Shown here: one piece after another, positions 15,408-32,225 of the stretch | Layout of the letters: the number at the start of each line of letters is the position of its first letter | Position numbering within the stretch: position 1 is the stretch's first letter | DNA from: a virus | IMG/VR virus record: IMGVR_UViG_3300042402_002054 | Location: 1-32,225 of that record | Reading direction: 5' to 3' (one strand) | DNA: 32,225 nt | Translations under genes and position numbers: made by a program | Notes under the pieces: model-generated | Databases searched by the model: none | What the model saw: the letters and a program-made list of their open reading frames with translations, nothing else | What the model was told of the DNA's origin: nothing

Positions 15408-15436
15408 TTGACCATTAATTCCCCTTTTGCTATAAT
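15408..15436 (+). promoter_or_regulatory. Strong sigma-70 promoter, cassette copy A
   Basis: TTGACC (15408-15413), 17 bases and TGC-TATAAT (-10 at 15431-15436, extended -10 TG present). It is followed by ACTTGTATAGTAATTAAAA and AAGGAG six bases before the ATG at 15467. CTATA...TATAG (15430-15446) is an inverted repeat just past the -10. Two more almost identical cassettes follow at 15739 and 16193. Confidence 0.92.
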
Positions 15437-15466
15437 ACTTGTATAGTAATTAAAAAGGAGTTAGCG

Positions 15467-15742
15467 ATGCGAGCACTTACCACTTTTATTGACAACAAAA
15501 ACCGTTATGCCAGCCTGTTCCGAGGCCAGCGCACAGAACCCGTGTATGAAATTCAAACTGCCGCAGGCCGCAAGCGTGTGGCTGAAATGATTGATTCGGA
15601 CCTGAGCCCCGAAAATCTTTCTTGTGATGGTGAATTGCCCCGTGCAGAAGTCAACCGACGCTATCGTGAGCTCACAGCGGCCGCAAAAGACCTTGTGAAA
15701 CTGGATCCCACAGTGGCTCAATACATGTACGAATTCGGTTGA
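15467..15742 (+). CDS. Small unknown protein behind strong promoter A
   Basis: This 91-residue protein is basic/acidic mixed and likely helical (RAEVNRRYRELTAAAKDLVKLD). It begins MRALTTFIDNKNRYASLFRG. It has its own consensus promoter and a perfect SD, so it is probably strongly and early expressed. No motif, signal or membrane segment is seen. The stop TGA is part of the -35 of the next promoter. A host-takeover or early regulatory role is guessed from promoter strength only. Confidence 0.8.
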   Translation: MRALTTFIDNKNRYASLFRGQRTEPVYEIQTAAGRKRVAEMIDSDLSPENLSCDGELPRAEVNRRYRELTAAAKDLVKLDPTVAQYMYEFG

Positions 15743-15767
15743 CCAATAAATCCCATTCTGCTATAAT
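15739..15767 (+). promoter_or_regulatory. Strong sigma-70 promoter, cassette copy B
   Basis: TTGACC (15739-15744), 17 bases and TGC-TATAAT (15762-15767). The leader (TATAATACTTGTATAGTAA, then CTAAAAGGAG and CCTGAAATG) is the same as copy C and nearly the same as A. The -35 overlaps the stop codon of the upstream gene. Confidence 0.92.
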
Positions 15768-15796
15768 ACTTGTATAGTAACTAAAAGGAGCCTGAA

Positions 15797-16186
15797 ATGC
15801 ATACATACACAAAACAGACAGAACTTTCCTGGATCGACACTAACGATATTGGTGAGCACATTGAGGACTTTGGCGACGAAATCTTAAACAAGGCTTTTGG
15901 CAAGTTCTGCATTATGGATGACCAGTTGGCCCTCCACAAAGTTTTAGAGAACGAAGTTGGCTACAACGATGACGAAATCGATCCTGGGCATGTGGACATT
16001 GTGCAAAAAACAGTGGAAGAGACCTTGAAGCAAGTTAACCTTGTTTTCAAGAACTTGGGCATTGCACTAGAGTTCAAACAGGCCGACATGGTAGAATACA
16101 CTGCCTACATGCTCACTGGCAAAGGCGACACACCCGAGGACATGGGTCGACGCATTCGTCGACTGGTAGCAGACCAGACTGTATAA
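15797..16186 (+). CDS. Small acidic unknown protein behind promoter B
   Basis: This 129-residue protein is strongly acidic in the first 80 residues (IGEHIEDFGDEI, NEVGYNDDEIDPGH) and ends in a basic patch (MGRRIRRLVADQTV). It looks helical and soluble, with no known motif. An acidic protein under a strong early-type promoter could bind a host protein or mimic DNA, but nothing in the sequence proves this. AAGGAG lies six bases before the ATG. Confidence 0.8.
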   Translation: MHTYTKQTELSWIDTNDIGEHIEDFGDEILNKAFGKFCIMDDQLALHKVLENEVGYNDDEIDPGHVDIVQKTVEETLKQVNLVFKNLGIALEFKQADMVEYTAYMLTGKGDTPEDMGRRIRRLVADQTV

Positions 16187-16192
16187 GTTTGA

Positions 16193-16221
16193 TTGACCAA
16201 CAATTCCCAAACTGCTATAAT
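16193..16221 (+). promoter_or_regulatory. Strong sigma-70 promoter, cassette copy C
   Basis: TTGACC (16193-16198), 17 bases and TGC-TATAAT (16216-16221). From the -10 to the ATG at 16251 it is identical to copy B. It drives the small-gene run that leads to the ligase. Confidence 0.92.
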
Positions 16222-16250
16222 ACTTGTATAGTAACTAAAAGGAGCCTGAA

Positions 16251-16523
16251 ATGAACGTCAAAGAAATTAACTCTGCTATCATGTTTAGTAATCTCACCAA
16301 TGACGAACTGTCTACGGTGATTGATGCTGTGAAGTTTGCCCGTGCACAACTCACCCAACAAAAGAAACGTATTTTTTCAATTGGTGATTCCGTAAAGTTC
16401 ACCAGCAACCGCAACGGCCTAACATACGTTGGCACTGTGCGCAAAGTCAAAATTAAATTTGTGCTGGTTAATACACCTGGCGGCTTGTTCAATGTACCGG
16501 CCAACATGCTGGAGGCGGCATGA
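16251..16523 (+). CDS. Small KOW/SH3-like unknown protein behind promoter C
   Basis: This 90-residue protein has an N-terminal helical part (EINSAIMFSNLTNDELSTVIDAVKFARAQL) and a C-terminal part with the small-barrel pattern FSIGDSVKFTSN... YVGTVRKVKIKFVLVNT... FNVPANMLEAA. That resembles hypothetical phage proteins with KOW/SH3-like domains, which sometimes bind nucleic acids. The function here is unknown. The stop overlaps the next ATG (ATGA). Confidence 0.8.
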   Translation: MNVKEINSAIMFSNLTNDELSTVIDAVKFARAQLTQQKKRIFSIGDSVKFTSNRNGLTYVGTVRKVKIKFVLVNTPGGLFNVPANMLEAA

Positions 16524-17099: not shown

Positions 17100-18473
17100 A
17101 TGAATGAAACAAACTTCTCAGACCCAAGGTTCTCGGGTGTAATGGCAGCAGGTTGGATCCGCGACTTAGAAAGTTCGGACAGCCGCATACACAAAGAAAA
17201 AACAATCGAAAAGGCCTTGATGGCATCCAAGTTAGGCTCAGCAGATGCACAGGCTTTCTTGTTCAATTGCTATCAAGCCTACAATCCTTTCTATGTGTTT
17301 GGCATCCGGCAAGTGCCTGAGACTGAGGGTTTGACTGACCAACCAAATCACTGGCCTGGATTTTGGGCGTTGTTGGAAAGCCTACGCACCCGTAGCATCA
17401 CCGGCAATCGTGCAAGAGAGGCAATTGAAACTTGCAGTCAAATGTTTGACTCAGACGAGTGGAATAACTTGGCTCGACGGGTGTTGATCAAGGACTTGAG
17501 ATGCGGTATCTCTGAGAAAACTCTAAACAAAGTACTGGGCAAGACTGAATGGAAGATTCCTGTGTTCAGTTGCCAACTGGCGCAAGACTCAACTGATCAG
17601 CCCAAGAAGCTAAAAGGCATCAAACGCCTGGAAGTCAAACTGGATGGTGTACGTGTGTTGGCAGTTGTGAATGGATCTGCTTGTACATTGTACAGCCGCA
17701 ATGGCAAAGAGTTTGAGAACTTCCCACAGATTGCTGACTTTGTCGAAGAACATCGCAAGGCATTCCAGCGTGATTCTGCCTTTGGTGGACAGTTTGTGTT
17801 GGATGGTGAGATTGTGGGCAAGAGTTTTCAGGACTTGATGAAACAGGCTCAGCGCAAGAGCAATGCCAAGACAGACAACATGGTTTATCATGTGTTTGAT
17901 ATTTTGCCGCTAACAGAGTTCCGCGAAGGATTCTGCAACCTACAGCAACACAAACGCATTGACCTGCTGAAACGTGCTCAAGCATTCTTGCCTGAGAACG
18001 GTTGTGTGCGTGTGATGCCTGGTATGGATGTGAACTTGGACACAGCAGAAGGACACGATGTCATGCGTAGGTTTGCCGAAGCTTCAGTAGAAGAAGGCTA
18101 CGAAGGTATCATGATCAAATCAATGGATGCACCTTATGAGTGTAAACGTAGTGACTTTTGGATGAAATGGAAACCCACCATAACTGTTGATCTCAATATT
18201 GTGGGTTTTGAAGAAGGTACTGGTCGCAATGAGGGCCGACTGGGTGCTATAATCTGTGAAGGAGAAGACAATGACAGAACTATTCGTGTTAATGTTGGTA
18301 GCGGTTTGTCTGATAGCAATCGCGATGAGTATTGGGCCGCTCGCAATGAGCTTCTTGATCGGGTGGTTGAGATTGAAGCGGACGCAGTTACACAAAACCA
18401 AGACGGATCATACAGCTTGAGATTCCCTCGCTTTGTGAGATTCCGTGGGTTTGAAGCAGGAGAGAAACTTTGA
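17100..18473 (+). CDS. ATP-dependent DNA ligase
   Basis: This 457-residue T4-type ligase seals nicks in phage DNA. Motif I is EVKLDGVR with the AMP-accepting lysine K180. Motif III is QFVLDGEIVG, motif IIIa VYHVFDILPL, motif IV EGYEGIMIK and motif V DFWMKWKP. An OB-fold follows (LGAIICEGE... RFPRFVRFRG). The N-terminal ~170 residues are a helical DNA-binding domain. The SD before the ATG is weak (GGATTAAAT). Inside the OB-fold coding region a second frame opens with a strong SD (see 18271). The stop overlaps the TTG start of the next gene. Confidence 0.97.
   Translation: MNETNFSDPRFSGVMAAGWIRDLESSDSRIHKEKTIEKALMASKLGSADAQAFLFNCYQAYNPFYVFGIRQVPETEGLTDQPNHWPGFWALLESLRTRSITGNRAREAIETCSQMFDSDEWNNLARRVLIKDLRCGISEKTLNKVLGKTEWKIPVFSCQLAQDSTDQPKKLKGIKRLEVKLDGVRVLAVVNGSACTLYSRNGKEFENFPQIADFVEEHRKAFQRDSAFGGQFVLDGEIVGKSFQDLMKQAQRKSNAKTDNMVYHVFDILPLTEFREGFCNLQQHKRIDLLKRAQAFLPENGCVRVMPGMDVNLDTAEGHDVMRRFAEASVEEGYEGIMIKSMDAPYECKRSDFWMKWKPTITVDLNIVGFEEGTGRNEGRLGAIICEGEDNDRTIRVNVGSGLSDSNRDEYWAARNELLDRVVEIEADAVTQNQDGSYSLRFPRFVRFRGFEAGEKL
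18245..18253 (+). promoter_or_regulatory. Extended -10 element inside the ligase gene
   Basis: TGCTATAAT (18245-18253) is identical to the extended -10 of the three promoter cassettes upstream. No good -35 is seen 17 bases before it. It precedes AAGGAG (18259-18264) and an ATG at 18271 in another frame. It may be a promoter for the nested frame or chance within coding DNA. Confidence 0.35.
18271..18420 (+). CDS. Possible nested membrane-peptide gene inside the ligase
   Basis: In the frame shifted from the ligase, ATG 18271 follows AAGGAG by exactly six bases and opens 49 codons ending at TGA 18418-18420. The product has a short N-terminus (MTE), about 30 hydrophobic residues (from LFVLMLVAV to SFLIGWL) and a Lys/Arg/His tail (RLKRTQLHKTK), the build of a small inner-membrane protein. 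Small phage membrane proteins of this shape include holin-like and lysis peptides, and no lysis gene is seen elsewhere in the window. The promoter-like TGCTATAAT lies just upstream. The ligase OB-fold itself is normal, so this would be overprinting. Chance cannot be excluded. Confidence 0.4.
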   Translation: MTELFVLMLVAVCLIAIAMSIGPLAMSFLIGWLRLKRTQLHKTKTDHTA

Positions 18474-19133: not shown

Positions 19134-19332
19134 AACAGTAAATAAAATCAGCGACAAGTTGACCAAGGTCAACGAATCGTTCACAGTGTACATGTATGAC
19201 AATGCGTACATGATTGAAGTATCGGGCCGAGACAGTGAGAACGACTACAAAACAGTCAAACTCATGGTTCCTACTCTGGAACAACTGCAGGCCTTGATCA
19301 AGGAAACTACAGAAATGGAAAGGGATGAATAA
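19120..19332 (+). CDS. Small conserved-looking phage protein, unknown function
   Basis: This 70-residue protein overlaps the previous gene by 14 bases. The sequence NESFTVYMYDNAYMIEVSGRD... KTVKLMVPTLEQLQALI suggests three beta strands and a C-terminal helix. It ends MERDE and its stop overlaps the start of the BAX-inhibitor-family gene. Function is unknown. Confidence 0.75.
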   Translation: MAKTKTVNKISDKLTKVNESFTVYMYDNAYMIEVSGRDSENDYKTVKLMVPTLEQLQALIKETTEMERDE

Positions 19333-20020
19333 CATGTTTGAAACAACTTATAATAGTGGTGCGTATCGTTCTGCAAGCGAAGTTAACTCAGCAATGGGTC
19401 GTGTGTACGGACACATGAGTCTTGCTGTTATTGTATCAATGTTTGTGAGTTACTTTGTGGGCTCTAGTCCCGAGTTACTGGCATTCTTTTTTACAGGCTG
19501 GTTGAAATGGATTGTGATCTTTTCACCCTTGGCAGCCATCTTTGGTGTGGGTTATGTGCTGGCCAACAATCCTAGCAAGGCTGTGGCACAGTTATGCCTG
19601 CATGGATTTGCGGCATTGATGGGGCTGAGCTTTTCGATGATCTTTGCTGTGTTTACCATGGGATCAATTGTGAGTGCCTTCATGGGTGCAGGCATCTTGT
19701 TTGGCGTCATGAGTGGCTATGGCTACTTTACCAAGCAGAGTTTGGATAGTGTTGGCAAGTTTATGTTTGTTGGATTGATTGCTATTGTGATTGCCAGCAT
19801 TGTGAACATCTTCATTGGATCAACAGTGATGCAGATGGTAATCTCAGCATTGGCTATCGTCATCTTCTTGGGACTTACTGCCTATGACACACAAAAGATT
19901 CGTGAAGAACTTTCAGTAGAAACCAGTGATTCAGCAGAAGTTCGTGGAGCACTGACCTTGTACATGGACTTTATCAACTTGTTTTTAAACTTGTTGCAGT
20001 TGTTTGGTGACCGGAAATAA
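19325..20020 (+). CDS. BAX inhibitor-1/YccA-family membrane protein
   Basis: This 231-residue protein has about seven hydrophobic helices and the family's closing signature: ALAIVIFLGLTAYDTQKIREE, then ALTLYMDFINLFLNLLQLFG. Family members are proton/calcium-sensitive channels or modulators of membrane proteases; E. coli YccA restrains FtsH. Start: ATG 19325 or 19334 (MNN-MFETTY), both served by AAGGG upstream; the first is given. It overlaps the previous gene by eight bases. In a phage it could protect the infected cell's membrane or damp FtsH. This fits the Clp/Hsp genes nearby, but is inference. Confidence 0.92.
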   Translation: MNNMFETTYNSGAYRSASEVNSAMGRVYGHMSLAVIVSMFVSYFVGSSPELLAFFFTGWLKWIVIFSPLAAIFGVGYVLANNPSKAVAQLCLHGFAALMGLSFSMIFAVFTMGSIVSAFMGAGILFGVMSGYGYFTKQSLDSVGKFMFVGLIAIVIASIVNIFIGSTVMQMVISALAIVIFLGLTAYDTQKIREELSVETSDSAEVRGALTLYMDFINLFLNLLQLFGDRK

Positions 20021-20022
20021 AC

Positions 20023-20505
20023 ATGTCCACCGTATATCTAATTAAACCACTGGAGAAAAAAAGCATTGTCTACCATGTAGAAATGTATCGTAAAAATCCC
20101 GACGATAGTATTAGTTGGTTTAACATTGACGAAACCTATCGTTGGGGGCATGGCTTTGTTGAAGGCGACTTAGACTGCAATCTTCCTTGGGAAGGTGATA
20201 CAGTAGCCTATGCTCGAACTGATTGTGGTTGGGGCTGTGAGTTTGATGACAGTGTCAGCATTGAGTGGGAGTTTAGTGACGACATCACCGAACTTGAACA
20301 ACAAGAGTTAAAAGAAGCATACTACGAAGGTGGAGCAGGTTGGCTGTATGATGGCGAGCATGATTGGTCAGAAGAAGATGCCGCAGTACACATCATTGCA
20401 CCATATCAAGTTGACCTGTGTGAAGACGATGGCACTGTGATTGAAGAAAATATCAAATTAAAATCTCGCCCTGCCGCCAGCAACAACTGGCCCTTTCCAG
20501 ATTAG
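20023..20505 (+). CDS. Acidic conserved-looking phage protein, unknown function
   Basis: This 160-residue, strongly acidic protein starts two bases after the BI-1 stop. It has many Trp and Asp/Glu (YRWGHGFVEGDLDCNLPWEGD, WEFSDDITELEQQELKEAYYEGG, then YDGEHDWSEEDAAVHI). It lacks a signal or membrane segment. I recognise no domain. It is the last gene of the ligase run, and a new promoter follows 17 bases later. Confidence 0.75.
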   Translation: MSTVYLIKPLEKKSIVYHVEMYRKNPDDSISWFNIDETYRWGHGFVEGDLDCNLPWEGDTVAYARTDCGWGCEFDDSVSIEWEFSDDITELEQQELKEAYYEGGAGWLYDGEHDWSEEDAAVHIIAPYQVDLCEDDGTVIEENIKLKSRPAASNNWPFPD

Positions 20506-20521
20506 CAGTTAGCCAAACTTG

Positions 20522-20550
20522 TTGACAATACTAGATCATGTTGTTATAAT
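20522..20550 (+). promoter_or_regulatory. Perfect sigma-70 promoter
   Basis: TTGACA (20522-20527), 17 bases and TATAAT (20545-20550) are both exact consensus. It drives the membrane protein, clpX and rpsU run. A palindrome flanks the -10 (next entry), which suggests repression. Confidence 0.9.
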
Positions 20551-20564
20551 TATAGAGCATGATC
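20534..20564. promoter_or_regulatory. Inverted repeat flanking the -10 (likely operator)
   Basis: GATCATG (20534-20540) and CATGATC (20558-20564) are exact reverse complements that bracket the -10 and the expected start of transcription near 20557. A dimeric regulator bound to both arms would cover the promoter. Confidence 0.45.
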
Positions 20565-20570
20565 AGGAAG

Positions 20571-20672
20571 ATGGTGCTGTTCAATGGTTTGGTGGGGTTC
20601 CTAGGCCTGCTAATACCGTGGCATGTGAACGTAAGTCACATAGGTTGCGACACTGTCCCTGGATTCGTCTAA
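20571..20672 (+). CDS. Possible 33-residue leader peptide
   Basis: ATG 20571 opens 33 codons: a hydrophobic N-terminal half (MVLFNGLVGFLGLLIPW) and HVNVSHIGCDTVPGFV, then TAA. AGGA lies only two bases before the ATG, too close for a good SD. The frame stays open for 19 more codons after the stop and ends in TAA one base before the next ATG. It may be a real micro-protein, a leader peptide or chance. Confidence 0.3.
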   Translation: MVLFNGLVGFLGLLIPWHVNVSHIGCDTVPGFV

Positions 20673-20717
20673 AACCCGGTTGATACCCGGGGGTATGCTC
20701 ATAGGGATTACACAGTG
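20651..20717 (+). promoter_or_regulatory. Structured 5' leader before the 20732 gene
   Basis: CACTGTCCCT (20651-20660) can pair with AGGG (20703-20706) and ACAGTG (20712-20717), leaving a five-base bulge. A GC-rich hairpin, CCCGG TTGATAC CCGGG, forms inside. The stem ends one base before the SD AAAGGA (20718-20723). Structure this close to the SD could control translation. No known riboswitch class is recognised. Confidence 0.35.
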
Positions 20718-20731
20718 AAAGGATATTTTTA

Positions 20732-21052
20732 ATGTCTGTTGAAACAGAGACCACTGCGTCGAGCATGTCTGCGTCACTCAATTTGCTTGAATCAACGCCC
20801 TTGGTCATGCACCGTATTTGGTTTGATTTGCGTGATACCGAAACTTGGTACGCAATCATGAAAGAGGCCACCACACTATATGGCCGAGATGGCTGGCGCA
20901 GTCAGCCTAGAGTCAAACGTAGACTGGAAAAGTTTGTGTGGGAAAGAAATAGACCTGAAAACCACGTTTGGTTTGAAGTGCCTGATCCGTCTTTTGCTAC
21001 TTGGTGTGCGGTAAAGCATGCTGTGATAGTGATAAAAAATCCCGGTAAATAA
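20732..21052 (+). CDS. Small phage protein, unknown function
   Basis: This 106-residue protein follows AAAGGA by eight bases. The N-terminus is Ser/Thr-rich and flexible. The rest is Trp/Arg-rich (RIWFDLRDTETWYAIMKEATTLYGRDGWRSQPRVKRRLEKFVW) and could contact nucleic acid, though no family is recognised. It is the first gene after the perfect promoter at 20522 and lies five bases before the large membrane protein gene. Confidence 0.75.
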   Translation: MSVETETTASSMSASLNLLESTPLVMHRIWFDLRDTETWYAIMKEATTLYGRDGWRSQPRVKRRLEKFVWERNRPENHVWFEVPDPSFATWCAVKHAVIVIKNPGK

Positions 21053-21057
21053 ACACT

Positions 21058-22584
21058 ATGATATTTGGTTTCGGCATATTGGCCACAGCTCTGCTACTGA
21101 GCGTGGTAGCCGCTTATTATTCAGTAGCAGGCCTAGTTGCAATCTTCTCTGCGGCGGCAATCCCTGTGATCATCATGGGTGGCAGTTTAGAGCTTGGCAA
21201 GATTGTGGCCACTGTGTGGTTGCACAACAATTGGAAACGAGCCGGCTGGGCATTCAAAGCATATCTAATTCCAGCAGTGGCATTTCTTATGCTGTTGACA
21301 TCAATGGGTATCTTTGGATACCTGTCAAAGGCACACAGTGACCAAAGCCTAGTGTCAGGCGACTCTATGAGTAAGGTTGCTATATATGATGAAAAAATTA
21401 AAACTGCTCGGGAGAACATAGATGTCAATCGCAAGGCGCTTAAACAAATGGACGAGGCAGTTGACCAAGTCATGGGCCGGAGTACATCAGAAACGGGGGC
21501 AGATAAATCCGTGGCTCTCCGTAGGGCTCAACAAAAGGAACGTGGGCGTCTCCTTGCTGAAATTTCAACCGAGCAGAAAACAATTACTGCGCTTAATGAA
21601 GAACGAGCGCCGTTGGCAGCAGAGTTCCGCAAGATTGAAGCCGAGGTTGGTCCTGTAAAATACATTGCCGCACTGGTGTATGGAGATAATCCCGATGCCA
21701 ATGTGTTGGAAAAAGCAGTACGTCTTGTTATTATCATGATTGTGCTGGTGTTTGATCCGCTAGCACTTACACTTATTCTGGCTGCCAACAAACAGTTTGA
21801 ATGGGCTAGACAAGGACGTGGCGGGTTTGTGCATGACGAGCCAGCCTACCCTCCAGATGACGGCCCGTTAACTGATGAACAAATTGAGCAGATAAAAGAG
21901 ACCGCCGACAAACCCAGTTGGATGATACGCACAGACCCATCGCCCCCAGGTTGGATGTACAACACTACCACAACAACATATCCTTCTACTGAAGAAGAAG
22001 TTGAAGAATTGAAAACAGAGTTTGACCGTAGCCGACATGCTTACTTAGACAAACCATTTGTGCATTTTGAAAATCTCAAACCCATGGTTGCCAAGTCAGA
22101 GTCCGTAATAGAGCCAGTTGAATCTGTGCCCGCCACAAGGCAAGTAATTGATTTTGATCCGTTTGATCCCGAAGATACTCCCGAAATGAAAGAAGCCAAG
22201 AGCCTTTGGAAAACTCTCAATCCAGACGATACACTAAAAAATCAACGTATCAAATTGGCCAAACACATGATCACTGAACTACCTTGGTTACAGTATTTAA
22301 AACCGGTTCCAAACTCTAGCTTTGGTCCTACATTTCCATCAACACCCGAGCGTGGCGACAGTTTTGTCAAAACAGATGTGATCCCAAACCAACTGTACAA
22401 ATTCAATGGCGACACATGGATTTTAGTTGACAAATCTACAGTAGATAACTATACTTACGATACAGCATACATTGATCATTTGATTGATAAAATTGCTACT
22501 GGTGAATATGATCCTGAACTTTTAAATCCAGGTGAACAAGAGCAAGTGGCGCAACGTTTACAAACTAAAACAAATAACACATGA
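21058..22584 (+). CDS. Membrane-anchored coiled-coil protein
   Basis: This 508-residue protein has three membrane helices in the first ~100 residues (about 2-25, 28-48, 70-90), a charged coiled-coil (about 105-195: KTARENIDVNRKALKQMDEA, later LLAEISTEQKTITALNEERA), a further helix (about 220-241: VRLVIIMIVLVFDPLALTLIL) and a long Pro/Asp/Glu-rich soluble tail. The tail holds a module PERGDSFVKTDVIPNQLYKFNGDTWILVD that resembles short domains in phage structural proteins. The layout recalls DUF4407-type membrane proteins, but I cannot prove membership. Topology suggests a membrane sensor or scaffold. The stop overlaps the clpX start (ATGA). Confidence 0.8.
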   Translation: MIFGFGILATALLLSVVAAYYSVAGLVAIFSAAAIPVIIMGGSLELGKIVATVWLHNNWKRAGWAFKAYLIPAVAFLMLLTSMGIFGYLSKAHSDQSLVSGDSMSKVAIYDEKIKTARENIDVNRKALKQMDEAVDQVMGRSTSETGADKSVALRRAQQKERGRLLAEISTEQKTITALNEERAPLAAEFRKIEAEVGPVKYIAALVYGDNPDANVLEKAVRLVIIMIVLVFDPLALTLILAANKQFEWARQGRGGFVHDEPAYPPDDGPLTDEQIEQIKETADKPSWMIRTDPSPPGWMYNTTTTTYPSTEEEVEELKTEFDRSRHAYLDKPFVHFENLKPMVAKSESVIEPVESVPATRQVIDFDPFDPEDTPEMKEAKSLWKTLNPDDTLKNQRIKLAKHMITELPWLQYLKPVPNSSFGPTFPSTPERGDSFVKTDVIPNQLYKFNGDTWILVDKSTVDNYTYDTAYIDHLIDKIATGEYDPELLNPGEQEQVAQRLQTKTNNT

Positions 22585-23771
22585 AATCAACTGAAAATCT
22601 CAGCACCTGCAGTTTTTGCAACAAACACAAAGATGCAGTAACTAAACTTATTGTGGGCGAAGAAGTTGCTATATGCAACGAATGTGTGGACCTGTGCCAA
22701 ACATTGCTAGTAGATCAACCAGAAGCAAAATCTGAAGAAGCCAACCTTGACCCAAGAGAAATTAAAAATCATCTTGATCAGTATGTTATTGGCCAGGATG
22801 CAGCCAAGGTCATGCTGAGTGTGGCAATTGCCAATCACTACAAACGTATTCGCAACAAAGATGTCAATACCGAAATTGAAAAAGCCAACATCCTCATGCT
22901 TGGTCCCACAGGATCCGGTAAGACATTACTGGCTCGCACAGTGGCACGGTATCTAGACGTGCCATTTGTTATTGCCGATGCCACTAGTCTAACCGAAGCA
23001 GGGTATGTAGGCGATGATGTGGAAAGTTTGATCAGTCGCTTGTATGCCGCCGCTGGTGGCGATGTTGAAAAGACACAACGTGGTATTGTGTTTGTGGACG
23101 AGATTGACAAGATCTCCCGCAAGAGTGAAAGTACTAGTATCACACGTGATGTGTCTGGTGAAGGTGTACAGCAGGCATTGTTAAAGCTAGTAGAAGGCAC
23201 CAAGTGTCGCATTATCCCACAAGGCGGCCGTAAACACCCAGGTGGCGACACTGTGGAAATTGATACTCGTAACATTTTGTTTATTGCAGGTGGTGCATTT
23301 GTGGGACTAGACAACATTGTTAAAAATCGTGTGCAAGGCACAGGAATTGGGTTTGGTGCCGACGTTGCTAGCAAAACAGCCAGCGACTTGCACTTGGATA
23401 AAACCACGCCGGATGACCTTGTGCGGTTTGGATTGATTCCTGAATTTGTAGGCAGATTTCCTGCTTGGGTCGCACTCAAAGAACTAGACAAAAAAGACCT
23501 TGTGCGTATCCTCAAAGAAGTAAAACACAACTATGTGAGTCAATACCAGTGGTTGTTCAAACAAGATGAAGTGGATCTTGAGTTTACATCTGACAGCTTG
23601 GATCTTATTGCTGAACGCACACTAAAGAACAAAACAGGTGCACGTGGACTACACAGTGAACTAGAACGGGTGTTAATGCCACACATGTACAATCTAGCAC
23701 GTTATCGTACCAACGGCATCAGCCATGTGGATATTGATCAAAACCTGGTAAATAGTCCAAAGGAATTGTAA
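22581..23771 (+). CDS. clpX: ClpX, ATPase subunit of the ClpXP protease
   Basis: This 396-residue AAA+ unfoldase is complete except for a slightly shorter C-terminus (E. coli 424). The zinc-binding domain has C10/C13 and C32/C35. Walker A is GPTGSGKT (108-115), the pore loop GYVG (141-144), Walker B VFVDEID (170-176), a QGGRKHP loop follows, the arginine finger R292 lies in GLIPEFVGRFP and sensor II is GARGL (353-357). The IGF loop that docks ClpP is kept (256-258, TGIGFGAD). No clpP is in the window, so it probably couples to host ClpP and redirects degradation. It starts in an ATGA overlap, seven bases before bS21. Confidence 0.98.
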   Translation: MKSTENLSTCSFCNKHKDAVTKLIVGEEVAICNECVDLCQTLLVDQPEAKSEEANLDPREIKNHLDQYVIGQDAAKVMLSVAIANHYKRIRNKDVNTEIEKANILMLGPTGSGKTLLARTVARYLDVPFVIADATSLTEAGYVGDDVESLISRLYAAAGGDVEKTQRGIVFVDEIDKISRKSESTSITRDVSGEGVQQALLKLVEGTKCRIIPQGGRKHPGGDTVEIDTRNILFIAGGAFVGLDNIVKNRVQGTGIGFGADVASKTASDLHLDKTTPDDLVRFGLIPEFVGRFPAWVALKELDKKDLVRILKEVKHNYVSQYQWLFKQDEVDLEFTSDSLDLIAERTLKNKTGARGLHSELERVLMPHMYNLARYRTNGISHVDIDQNLVNSPKEL

Positions 23772-23777
23772 CGACCC

Positions 23778-24002
23778 ATGGAAAAATTACACGGTAGATC
23801 AGTACTAGTAACAGATGGCAACGTAGACCGAGCACTGCGTAAATTCAAAAAGAAAATACAAGAAACAGGTCTGTTAAACGAACTTAGAGACCGTGAATTC
23901 TACACCAAGCCCACCACCCAACGTAAACTCAAAGCAAGTGCTGCCAAGAATCGCTGGAATAAAAAACTACGCGAACAACAGTTGCCTAAAAAACAGTTCT
24001 AA
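23778..24002 (+). CDS. rpsU: Ribosomal protein bS21
   Basis: This 74-residue protein has the bS21 signature: VDRALRKFKKKIQETGLLNELRDREFYTKPTT, followed by an RKLKASAAKNRW basic tail. bS21 (E. coli 71 residues) sits on the 30S platform near the anti-SD and affects initiation. Several phages are known to encode it, likely to swap the host copy and favour phage mRNA. Many genes here have strong SDs, which fits. The ATG lies six bases after the clpX stop. The stop overlaps the next ATG (TAATG). Confidence 0.95.
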   Translation: MEKLHGRSVLVTDGNVDRALRKFKKKIQETGLLNELRDREFYTKPTTQRKLKASAAKNRWNKKLREQQLPKKQF

Positions 24003-24220
24003 TGTACATAGAGTTTGACATTGTCACAAGCATGGACAGCTTTGATGATCTCAAAGACACAGTCAATGCCTGGGCCATGCGCTACAAGGTGCCCTACACG
24101 ACCAAAGTTGCCAAAGGTTTGAAATATCGACTTGGCCTAAATTACCCGGAGCATTTTACTCTTTTTACTATGACCTGGGTTGCATGCGATTACACAATAA
24201 AAAACATCGAAAAGTCTTGA
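24002..24220 (+). CDS. Small phage protein coupled to bS21, unknown function
   Basis: This 72-residue protein starts in a one-base TAATG overlap with rpsU. It is a mixed alpha/beta sequence: MYIEFDIVTSMDSFDDLKDTV... WAMRYKVPYTTKVAKGLKYRLGLNYPEHFTLFTMTW. No motif is known to me. Coupling to bS21 suggests joint regulation with translation-related function, though that is only positional. Confidence 0.75.
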   Translation: MYIEFDIVTSMDSFDDLKDTVNAWAMRYKVPYTTKVAKGLKYRLGLNYPEHFTLFTMTWVACDYTIKNIEKS

Positions 24221-24247
24221 CAACAGTTGAGATTTCCTGTATAAATA
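24217..24247 (+). promoter_or_regulatory. Promoter for hsp20
   Basis: TTGACA (24217-24222), a 17-base spacer and TATAAA (24240-24245) form a good sigma-70 promoter. The same bases read TATAAATA (24240-24247), the exact T4 late promoter octamer. Either reading, or both, could apply. A 64-base leader with a small hairpin and SD AAAGGAG follows. Confidence 0.8.
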
Positions 24248-24310
24248 TGTTTGTAGTGCCCATAGTGGGGCTACATTACAAGTCATCTTGCTTAATAAAG
24301 GAGAAAACAA

Positions 24311-24769
24311 ATGACAAAAACTCTCACCCTTCGATCTTTCGATATTCCCGCACTCACTAAATTTGGTATCGGCTTCGATAACATGTTTGATGAACTCATG
24401 CGTGTGAATGCCCAACAAAGCTCAACAAACTACCCGCCTTATGATATTGTACAAGTCAATGACGACGAGTACATGATTGCCGTGGCCGTAGCTGGTTTTG
24501 GGTATGATGATCTATCAGTGACCAAGGATAAAAAAATCTTGGTCATTGAAGGCAAACACAGCCGCGAAACTGTGGAGAATGAAGATTCTACTGCAAAATA
24601 TTTGCACAAAGGAATCAGTGAGCGTAGTTTCCGTAGAGAATTTCAACTAGCGGATCACGTGGAAATTACCGGCGCACATCTTGAACTTGGTATTTTGAGC
24701 ATTCACCTAACCCGTGAAGTTCCTGAAGAAGCCAAGCCAAAGACTATTGCTATCACCTACACTTCCTAA
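24311..24769 (+). CDS. hsp20: Small heat-shock protein (Hsp20, IbpA-like)
   Basis: This 152-residue protein has an IbpA-type alpha-crystallin domain: IGFDNMFDELMR near the start, YPPYDIVQVNDDEYMIAVAVAGF, LVIEGKH, ISERSFRREFQLADHVEITGAHLELGILSIHL, and a C-terminal IAI-type anchor (KTIAITYTS). Small Hsps hold unfolding proteins for refolding or degradation. Hsp20 is known in T4-like marine phages, including on virions. It has its own promoter and SD (AAAGGAG, 24297-24303). It is placed between bS21 and ClpS. Confidence 0.97.
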   Translation: MTKTLTLRSFDIPALTKFGIGFDNMFDELMRVNAQQSSTNYPPYDIVQVNDDEYMIAVAVAGFGYDDLSVTKDKKILVIEGKHSRETVENEDSTAKYLHKGISERSFRREFQLADHVEITGAHLELGILSIHLTREVPEEAKPKTIAITYTS

Positions 24770-24775
24770 TATAAT
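24747..24775 (+). promoter_or_regulatory. Possible promoter for clpS
   Basis: TTGCTA (24747-24752), 17 bases and TATAAT (24770-24775) lie over the hsp20 stop. The -35 matches four of six bases. Transcription would begin near 24782, placing a strong hairpin at the very 5' end of the clpS mRNA. GTAAATAC (24779-24786) is an alternative late-type octamer. Confidence 0.45.
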
Positions 24776-24783
24776 AGTGTAAA

Positions 24784-24812
24784 TACAGTGGCAGCGAGGT
24801 GCTGCCACTGTA
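24784..24812 (+). other. Perfect hairpin between hsp20 and clpS
   Basis: TACAGTGGCAGC (24784-24795), loop GAGGT and GCTGCCACTGTA (24801-24812) form a perfect 12-base-pair stem. No T-run follows (AACAGGG), so it is not a standard terminator. It sits just before the clpS SD (AGGGA) and could stabilise the 5' end of clpS mRNA or the 3' end of hsp20 mRNA. Confidence 0.75.
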
Positions 24813-24824
24813 ACAGGGAAAATT

Positions 24825-25133
24825 ATGTCACAATCAGAAACACGCACAAAAATCAAACCAAGCGAACAACTCAAAGAGCCGCCGATGTACAAGGTCATCT
24901 ATCTAAATGATAACCAGACCACAATGGAATTTGTGATCGAAACCTTGATTGAATTTTTTAATTACAACACTGACACAGCGTTTACCATTACTGAAGACAT
25001 TCACAATGCTGGGTCAGCATGTGTTGCGGTATTGCCATATGAAATTGCCGAACAAAAAGGCATTGAAGTAACACTGGCAGCCAGAAGCAACAGCTACCCT
25101 CTACAGATCAAACTTGAGCCTGATCAGGCCTAA
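24825..25133 (+). CDS. clpS: ClpS adaptor protein
   Basis: This 102-residue protein matches the ClpS core: PPMYKVIYLNDNQTTMEFVIETL, then ITEDIHNAGSACVAV and a C-terminal YPLQIKLEP. ClpS carries N-degron substrates to ClpA (bacteria) and blocks other ClpA substrates. The N-degron pocket is kept at N28, D29, T32, M34 and H60 (E. coli N34, D35, T38, M40, H66), with N30 where E. coli has D36. No clpA is seen, so host ClpA would be the partner. AGGGA lies six bases before ATG. It ends in a tail-to-tail overlap with the minus-strand gene. Confidence 0.95.
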   Translation: MSQSETRTKIKPSEQLKEPPMYKVIYLNDNQTTMEFVIETLIEFFNYNTDTAFTITEDIHNAGSACVAVLPYEIAEQKGIEVTLAARSNSYPLQIKLEPDQA

Positions 25134-30385: not shown

Positions 30386-31305
30386 TAAACACACACAATG
30401 AATGGGATCCACTAAAGAAGATTGTAGTAGGATCAGCAACACATGCCAACTGGCCTGTAAACGATCCTGTGTTCTCCAAGGAAAGTGAAAAGACTTCATG
30501 GAAAGAAACGCCAGTGCCCAGTGGACCTGTGCCACAGTGGATCATTGATGAAGCCAATGAAGACCTTGATGGTCTAGCCAAGATTCTAACAGATCTAGGT
30601 GTGGTGGTTGTGCGCCCAGAACCCATGAACTTTCAAACGCACGATGGTATGTACAACTATTGCCCTAGAGACAGACTATTAATTGTTGGGGACAAAGTAA
30701 TTGATACTGCCATGATGTATCCTTGCAGAGACATGGAACTACAATGCTATCATAGCATCCTTGAAGATGCAGAAGTAATCACCATGCCCAGAGACCAGGA
30801 CCTGGTACTAGATGCTGCCAACATACTGCGTCTTGGTCCAAACAAAATGCTGTACTTGGAAAGCGCCAGCGGCAACAAAGCGGCTTATTATTGGTTGTTG
30901 GCCAATTTGCCACCTGACACCAGCATTGAACTATGTAATTTTTATGCTGGCGTGCATATTGATTCAACCATTGTGCCCTTGCGTGAAGGTGTTGTTATGT
31001 TGAATGCAAGCCGTGTTAGTTTTGACAATGTTCCCCGAGCATTTGAAGGCTGGCAAAAGATCTGGATTCGTGATGTAGTGGCACAAGGATTTCACGAATA
31101 TCCATATGCATCAAAATGGATAGCAATGAACATGTTGGTAGTAGATCCTGAAACAGTTATTGTGGACCGGCACCAAACCGAATTGATCAAAACTTTGGAA
31201 AGTTACCGATTTCGGGTAATTCCACACGAACTACGCCATAGTAGAACTCTTGGTGGTGGGTTTCATTGTGTCACATTAGATCTAATTCGGCAAGCAAGAA
31301 GTTGA
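30382..31305 (+). CDS. Amidinotransferase (glycine/inosamine type)
   Basis: This 307-residue enzyme transfers an amidino group, usually from arginine, to an amine. The catalytic triad is recognisable: D144 (LDAANILRLG), H192 (AGVHIDSTIVPL) and C296 (GGGFHCVTLDL). The spacing fits human AGAT (D254, H303, C407; differences 49 and 104 against 48 and 104 here). Acceptor is unknown. In streptomycin-type pathways related enzymes act on amino-sugars or inosamines, which fits the sugar genes next door, but glycine would be an alternative. It starts in an ATGA overlap, and its stop TGA is inside the next -35. Confidence 0.88.
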   Translation: MINTHNEWDPLKKIVVGSATHANWPVNDPVFSKESEKTSWKETPVPSGPVPQWIIDEANEDLDGLAKILTDLGVVVVRPEPMNFQTHDGMYNYCPRDRLLIVGDKVIDTAMMYPCRDMELQCYHSILEDAEVITMPRDQDLVLDAANILRLGPNKMLYLESASGNKAAYYWLLANLPPDTSIELCNFYAGVHIDSTIVPLREGVVMLNASRVSFDNVPRAFEGWQKIWIRDVVAQGFHEYPYASKWIAMNMLVVDPETVIVDRHQTELIKTLESYRFRVIPHELRHSRTLGGGFHCVTLDLIRQARS

Positions 31306-31330
31306 CTTTTTGCACAAATGAGTATATAAT
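31302..31330 (+). promoter_or_regulatory. Sigma-70 promoter for UV endonuclease
   Basis: TTGACT (31302-31307), 17 bases and TATAAT (31325-31330): the same hexamers and spacer as at 1312. The -35 overlaps the amidinotransferase stop. The expected start of transcription (about 31337) is the A of the ATG. Confidence 0.88.
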
Positions 31331-31336
31331 ACTCAT
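31318..31336. promoter_or_regulatory. Perfect palindrome over the -10 (likely operator)
   Basis: ATGAGTAT (31318-31325) ATA ATACTCAT (31329-31336) is an exact inverted repeat covering the -10 and ending right before the ATG. Its fit with the promoter suggests a repressor site. Confidence 0.55.
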
Positions 31337-32225
31337 ATGAACACACGAATTGGCTTTTGTTGCAAGTGGCTTAATGACCCTACTGAATGTGGTGGCATGA
31401 AAGTCAACGCAGTGGACCGTGACCTAAACGGCAGATCAACTACCATGAGGTGGCTCCGCGAACATGCTGACGAAGCAGACCAGCGTCAATGGGACATCAT
31501 GAATCACAATGCGTCAGCGGCTGTGCGGATGATCGAACGTGTGGCCACGTTACCAGAAGGTCGTAGAATGGTACGTCTTGGTAGCGAAATGCTACAGGGC
31601 TATACTGAGCCCAACTGGATTGCGTGGTGGCAACGGCAAGAAATTCAAGATCACTGTGCAAAGATCTTTGCCCCAATTGGTGAAGCCGCACGTAAATACG
31701 GTGTGCGTTTGAGCTTTCATCCTGGCCAGTTTTGCGTACTAGCAAGCGAAGCAGATGAGATTGTAGAACGTTCAATATTAGAATTTGAATATCACGCTGA
31801 TATGGCACGTTGGATGGGCTATGGTCGAACCTGGCACGACAACGGCTTTAAGATCAACGTACACTTGAGCGGTAAAGGTGGTCCCGCTAAATTCTTGCGT
31901 ACACTGGGTAGACTCAGCCCCGAAGCAAGAAATTTAATTACCATCGAGAATGATGAGATGACAAATGGACTTGACACTACTTTGGCTGTGGCTCAGCATG
32001 TGGCTCTTGTATTGGACCTACACCACCACTGGATTAACTCGGGAGAGTACATCTCCGCGACGGACGATCGCGTCAAGCGGGTTATTGACTCTTGGCGTGG
32101 CACTCGTCCTGCACTTCATTATAGTGTTAGTCGCGAGGACGTTTTGGTTGACCATGACCGAGGAACTAGACCCGATCTTGCTGAACTTCTTGCTAGAGGT
32201 TATAAGAAACAGAAACTCCGAGCAC
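31337..32225 (+). CDS. uvsE: UV damage endonuclease UvdE (3' end beyond window)
   Basis: The frame from ATG 31337 runs open to the window end (296 codons) and is therefore partial. It is a TIM-barrel UV damage endonuclease, which nicks 5' of UV photoproducts and starts repair independently of photolyase. The family motifs are in order: MNTRIGFCCKWL, RLSFHPGQFCVLAS (metal His), INVHLSGKGG, ITIENDEM (metal Glu), LDLHHHW and ALHYSVSRED. Only the very C-terminus is missing. No SD precedes the ATG, so the mRNA is probably leaderless (see findings). Confidence 0.95.
   Translation, partial: MNTRIGFCCKWLNDPTECGGMKVNAVDRDLNGRSTTMRWLREHADEADQRQWDIMNHNASAAVRMIERVATLPEGRRMVRLGSEMLQGYTEPNWIAWWQRQEIQDHCAKIFAPIGEAARKYGVRLSFHPGQFCVLASEADEIVERSILEFEYHADMARWMGYGRTWHDNGFKINVHLSGKGGPAKFLRTLGRLSPEARNLITIENDEMTNGLDTTLAVAQHVALVLDLHHHWINSGEYISATDDRVKRVIDSWRGTRPALHYSVSREDVLVDHDRGTRPDLAELLARGYKKQKLRA

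Follow-up and report, generated by a model that had tools for sequence, protein, structure and literature searches.

Genes lying wholly within other genes are well known in tiny phages and among the spanins. Annotation software tends to discard such genes, and a large phage is commonly supposed to have no need of them. We describe here an open frame of 49 codons nested in the ATP-dependent DNA ligase gene of a large phage, which can be set beside several of the known cases. In phiX174, gene E, whose small product has an N-terminal hydrophobic segment and a basic remainder, is encoded out of frame in the unrelated gene D. The peptide considered here is likewise small, hydrophobic in its N-terminal segment, basic in the remainder and nested out of frame, but the genome that carries it measures hundreds of kilobases instead of 5 kb, no sequence similarity to E was found, and a lysis role has not been shown. 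In the large virulent phage T4, gene 30.3' is fully embedded in gene 30.3, near the ligase gene 30. The likeness to our locus covers the full embedding, the large virulent phage and the closeness of a ligase gene, although in T4 the host gene is 30.3 and not the ligase itself.

In phage lambda, Rz1 (the o-spanin) is fully nested in the +1 frame of another phage gene, Rz (the i-spanin), and is a small envelope protein of the kind usually missed by gene callers (PMC6139136). The frame within the ligase gene would share these traits; unlike Rz1, it encodes no conserved lipobox cysteine, has a ligase gene and not an i-spanin gene as its host, possesses its own −10 box inside that host gene and ends in a basic tail. 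The genes olg1 and olg2 of phage Fc02 are also overlapping phage ORFs in different frames, one of them encoding a small superinfection-exclusion protein and olg1 matching a DEDDh exonuclease domain; unlike the present pair, they lie upstream of a prophage repressor gene, in its transcript, and no ligase is involved (PMC9936078).

A frame nested in the DNA ligase gene

The window, i.e., the whole stretch of 32,225 nucleotides that was analyzed, carries on its plus strand an ATP-dependent DNA ligase gene of 457 aa (17100..18473), composed of an adenylation domain and an OB fold and matching Pfam DNA_ligase_A_M (E=5.5e-23), DNA_ligase_OB_2 (E=5.7e-11) and PHROG 114 (E=5.6e-95). The OB-fold part is the site of the nested ORF, which runs on the same strand in the +1 frame of the ligase gene (18271..18420) and consists of 49 aa plus TGA, with its start ATG at 18271, its stop at 18418-18420 and MTELFVLMLVAVCLIAIAMSIGPLAMSFLIGWLRLKRTQLHKTKTDHTA as its product. 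A preliminary description had reported AAGGAG, six bases, ATG and a 49-codon frame inside the ligase gene, and inspection of the sequence found these elements as described. The AAGGAG-N6-ATG arrangement (18259-18273) is one of five in the window, where 0.26 would be expected.

The same description had inferred a hidden gene and proposed a comparison of homologous ligases for the start, the Shine-Dalgarno (SD) sequence, the lack of stops and synonymous constraint. The ORF withstood this comparison, made with near as well as distant relatives: start, SD and open frame are conserved far beyond what the ligase protein would account for, and strong synonymous constraint is limited to the signals and the ORF and to the clade that possesses it. 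The inference is thereby supported. Judging from these comparisons, we hold it to be nearly certain that 18271-18420 would be a real gene, and we give a probability of roughly 0.85 to its being an overprinted gene for a membrane peptide, a figure that leaves the role of the peptide aside. The gene is demonstrated by evolution and not yet by expression, since neither a transcript nor a ribosome footprint nor the peptide itself has so far been detected.

Conservation in the clade of the window

The closest relatives form a set of 80 ligases from viral contigs, the one of the window included, with ~75-100% DNA identity over the 3′ part. TATAAT is present in 80 of 80, ATG in 79 (the remaining one has GTG) and AAGGAG in 74, and 73 of 75 keep the +1 frame open as far as codon 49. 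Over the same stretch the +2 frame is open in 0 of 75 and the three antisense frames in 11, 12 and 0 of 75, so that antisense ORFs were ruled out as not conserved. Among these close relatives, degenerate codons whose amino acid is invariant never vary in 11 cases out of 27 inside the region vs 4 out of 172 elsewhere (p=3.5e-8), and third-position change per site drops from 9.78 to 3.67 within the ORF and rises again to 8.06 beyond the stop. The lowest synonymous windows of the ligase all lie in the nested region.

A wider set of 195 non-redundant ligases, for which two further scans did not use the nested signals, comprises the clade of the window (n=119) and a sister clade (n=76) that is ~48% identical to the window ligase. 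In the former the start (ATG or GTG) is kept in 115/117 members and 108/111 show an uninterrupted frame over 38 codons, conservation extending to ~65% amino-acid identity, while in the sister clade the signals are absent, with one TATAAT in 76. By parsimony, third-position changes per site in the clade of the window amount to 26.2 in ligase codons 60-381, 11.8 in the signal block (382-391) and 15.5 in the ORF (392-430), and the corresponding values in the sister clade are 22.5, 26.3 and 22.9. The first and second ligase positions of the former clade are not slowed in the ORF (9.13 and 5.49 vs 8.81 and 5.49), and on this ground a cold spot for recombination or mutation was rejected. Given these rates, only the third position is slowed, only in the nested stretch and only in the clade that bears the ORF. 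As the comparative data show, purifying selection acts on the +1 frame, its SD, its start codon and the upstream TGCTATAAT.

The ligase frame is older than the nested one, as the sister-clade ligases have neither the signals nor the constraint. The gene would have arisen within a single lineage of large freshwater phages, in the +1 frame of the part of the ligase gene that encodes the OB fold. It is not indispensable, since three members of the clade (L377, L378 and L433, the first two being sisters) have lost the ORF; in L378 the −10, SD, ATG and frame are all gone together.

Two further observations concern the history of these ligases. In a subclade of the sister clade (L298, L320, L332 and relatives), the +1 frame is open in 12/12 members (P=0.004 under the null described below) and AAGGAG occurs in 9, but the start codon is not conserved; this may be a precursor state or a remnant. 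Furthermore, L441, L228 and L237 have a window-type 3′ end and the nested peptide at only 68-74% identity in their best segment, and recombination within their ligase gene is likely.

A promoter-like box and a Shine-Dalgarno sequence

The putative extended −10 of an internal promoter, TGCTATAAT (18245..18253, plus strand), is written in synonymous sites of ligase Gly-Ala-Ile-Ile. It has 4 matches in the window vs 0.22 expected, it is kept in 80/80 close relatives, and TATAAT is found in 105/118 ligases of the clade. The preliminary description had equated it with the −10 of three cassettes (15428, 15759 and 16213), and the identity proved exact. Those cassettes (15408-15469, 15739-15799 and 16193-16253) are near-identical, with TTGACC-17-TATAAT, TGC before TATAAT and then a ACTTGTATAGTAAYTAAAAGGAG-like leader, and each precedes a short gene of unknown function. 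Eight related genomes (262-364 kb) each contain 9-15 copies of a promoter with a matching −10 box, and the box is therefore a repeated element of these phages.

Unlike the cassettes, in which TTGACC lies 17 bp upstream of the −10, the site at 18245 lacks a −35 hexamer that reaches the promoter-scan threshold, and therefore only a promoter of the extended −10 type is possible there. A weak −35-like hexamer, TCGCAA (18224..18229, plus strand; 3 of 6 positions), stands 18 bp upstream of TATAAT; it scores under the threshold and remains doubtful. Its first T, at 18224, is a frozen synonymous site, with 2 changes in the clade vs 28 in the sister clade.

The SD of the nested gene (18259..18264, plus strand) reads AAGGAG in 105/118 and AAGG in 118/118 of the clade. 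It is also the predicted transcript start: the gap between TATAAT and the SD is 5 nt, vs 17-18 nt in the cassettes, and the predicted transcript would therefore begin at the SD. The notion that so short a gap makes the promoter physically unlikely was dropped, because a short-leader layout recurs at an ordinary gene of the window (TTGACT-17-TATAAT-6-AAGGAG-6-ATG, ATG at 1359) and at other genes of related genomes.

Several other promoter-like sites of the window deserve mention on their own. A consensus-like promoter at 1310-1361 stands with almost no leader before the gene at 1359, and at 31302-31339 TTGACT-17-TATAAT is followed within 6-7 nt by the ATG of an ORF starting near 31337, apparently leaderless. 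At 20522-20565, a perfect TTGACA-17-TATAAT has its −10 flanked by the operator-like inverted repeat GATCATG...CATGATC. Moreover, a NifU/IscU-like gene of relatives (L164, L167, L171 and ~20 further loci) is preceded by GCTATAAT-N4-GAAGGA-N7-ATG, the layout of the nested gene, which the NifU gene of the window itself (1663) does not have.

The status of TATAAT changed ~9 times on the tree, and the ORF persists in most of the lineages that lack it; the ligase mRNA must therefore often be sufficient for translation. The internal promoter is less certain than the gene, for want of a clear −35 and in view of the turnover of TATAAT; even so, we regard it as probable that the nested gene has a promoter of its own. 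From the anatomy of the signals, RNA polymerase, directed by an extended −10 promoter within the ligase gene, would start at 18259/18260 and would produce a leader of ~12 nt with the SD at its very start. The ligase mRNA would probably be a second template, inasmuch as several relatives lost TATAAT but kept the ORF.

The predicted peptide

The nested frames encode 102 distinct homologous peptides of 39-55 aa (39, 49 or 55 aa in relatives). They begin with four residues of mostly polar, acidic or mixed character; one hydrophobic stretch follows, with invariant Met8 and Gly22, and the C-terminal part mostly has Trp32, Lys/Arg at 34 and 36 and then a basic tail. The membrane character assigned to the peptide beforehand finds support, as all 102 contain a 19-residue stretch with a mean Kyte-Doolittle hydropathy of at least 2.07. 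The AlphaFold2 model is a single helix spanning residues 2-45 (mean pLDDT 78.7). It must also be considered that hydrophobicity is inherent in the +1 frame over this part of the ligase gene, the mean hydropathy being 1.84 in the sister clade, where there is no gene. Altogether, the product is very likely a membrane peptide. It is inferred that it would insert as one inner-membrane helix (residues ~5-33) and, following the positive-inside rule, that its N-terminus would lie outside and its Lys/Arg tail in the cytoplasm.

These peptides form a new family. No match at a meaningful E-value was obtained in Pfam, NCBIfam or PHROGs, holin families included, and tblastn on phage records returned only E=3-4. 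Stand-alone copies of the gene were not found in 14 related contigs, among them the three that lost the nested ORF, and no ligase relatives appeared in the genome-contig scan.

Possible roles

For its role, the reading to which we incline, tentatively and with weak support, is that of a peptide made early, with the host inner membrane or a membrane protein in it as its target, in superinfection exclusion or host takeover; here function is deduced from anatomy alone. This reading fits because of the small size, the one membrane helix, the cassette-type −10 box and the position in a replication gene. In an overlapping phage gene pair in Pseudomonas, one member has been shown to exclude phages (PMC9936078). 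We infer that such an early role is more likely than lysis and that the peptide is not a ligase subunit.

A holin or lysis-like role had been suggested for this locus, and nothing positive speaks for it; that the peptide is a lysis protein, be it a holin, a pinholin or an amurin-like agent of single-gene lysis, we deem unlikely. The small peptide with one hydrophobic segment and a basic C-terminus would suit it, the membrane segment expected of a holin being present in 102/102 peptides, but the best-known holins have two or three such segments. Nesting in another gene, as in phiX174 E, would suit it as well. The +1 nesting of lambda Rz1 is a further parallel (PMC6139136). Searches of eight related genomes for three common lysis-enzyme families were negative, so that the lysis system of these phages is unidentified, although such a negative result says little. 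That no lysis gene is seen in the window, as had been remarked, weighs little, because these 32 kb are a fragment of a large phage whose relatives have contigs of 320-364 kb. Among the neighbors scanned no endolysin gene was recognized. On the other hand, the nested gene sits in a replication gene with no recognized lysis gene adjoining, its −10 box matches repeated cassette promoters and not a known late signal, and it has been lost in at least two lineages.

An o-spanin of the Rz1 type was excluded separately. The o-spanin lipobox has a conserved cysteine, [LVI][ASTVI][GAS]C (PMC6139136), whereas residue 13 is Cys in 35/102 of our peptides and otherwise Leu, Phe, Ile or Ser, and VAVC does not fit the motif. 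The host gene, moreover, encodes a DNA ligase and not an i-spanin. For a type I toxin-like membrane peptide one would expect an antisense RNA antitoxin in cis; all that bears on it here is the absence of an Rfam match in the window.

A phage Bax1-I gene (19325-20020) begins ~900 bp downstream of the nested gene and belongs to a cluster of Bax1-I, ClpX, HSP20 and ClpS genes (19325-25133); elsewhere in the window there are NifU_N, Fe-S_biosyn, glutaredoxin and ribonucleotide reductase genes. YccA, of the Bax1-I family, acts on FtsH. The peptide might accordingly modulate a membrane protease or chaperone such as FtsH, together with the phage Bax1-I (YccA-like), ClpX, ClpS and HSP20. The presence of these genes in the same window is, nevertheless, neighborhood evidence only, and the peptide has no sequence similarity to known FtsH regulators; this option seems to us slightly weaker still than lysis.

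A coding footprint at nucleotide resolution

The constraint could also be imagined to preserve a signal in DNA or RNA, such as an RNA structure, an internal promoter for downstream genes or a replication or packaging site, the open frame being a by-product. Indeed, it covers a promoter-like box that precedes the ORF and could by itself serve the gene at 18470. Nevertheless, the constraint tracks the reading frame and its signals position by position. In third-position changes (clade/sister), the −10 box has 4/29, 8/33 and 7/27, and the next third position, 18254, is free (34/31); the SD has 0/20 and 6/28, the spacer between SD and ATG is free (26/27 and 22/21), and the ATG has 2/23.

Within the ORF, T in the third position is maintained (0.96) where C would turn Leu, Ile, Met or Phe of the peptide into Ser, Thr or Pro, and such columns have 6.9 changes vs 20.7 in control columns (p=4.6e-5). 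Columns where the change would be from Val to Ala, only 3 in number, are not detectably constrained (22.3 vs 26.7, p=0.19). Furthermore, in lineages with ~12 independent origins the ORF stops early, at 39 aa, and the ligase codons beyond the stop relax, namely codons 435, 436 and 438 (Fisher p=5e-5, 7e-4 and 2e-4, uncorrected for kinship). A conserved RNA structure in particular was ruled out, with a folding z-score of 0.11, 1/16 predicted pairs covarying and no Rfam family matched in the window. A mere nucleic-acid signal without a gene is, in our opinion, highly improbable, and an overprinted gene remains the preferred reading.

The frame was also compared with a null in which, per column, the codon pattern across all sequences was borrowed from another ligase column with the same amino acid (5000 trials), a procedure that preserves each ligase protein and the shared ancestry. 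The 108/111 intact ORFs stand against a null mean of 5.4 and a maximum of 48, the mean hydropathy of peptide residues 5-24 is 2.36 against a null maximum of 1.55, and TATAAT was observed 98 times against a maximum of 13. Applied to the sister clade, the same null gave ordinary start values and only a mild excess of open frames. That ligase amino-acid conservation combined with third-position T bias produced the open frame by accident is scarcely credible: even the sister clade has a hydrophobic +1 frame in the OB-fold motif, with 41/72 open over 38 codons, but the intact frames and the hydropathy observed exceed these null maxima, and sister-clade start codons are not enriched (P=0.88).

Implications

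If we go beyond the gene itself, the odds seem to us about even that this is a new phage membrane-peptide family which exists only as a ligase overprint and whose complete expression unit, understood as an extended −10 promoter, an SD at the 5′ end of the transcript and a start codon, is accommodated in synonymous positions of the ligase. If this were true, a membrane function could be triggered inside the ligase gene on a schedule of its own, for instance as a switch that acts early in exclusion or at the host membrane.

Comparative data alone resolve, at nucleotide resolution, the promoter box, the ribosome site, the start, the hydrophobic code and the stop of a nested gene, and the natural gains and losses of the ORF constitute internal controls. 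This suggests that scans for synonymous constraint in viral contigs can find nested genes, and more small membrane genes may hide inside the core genes of large phages.
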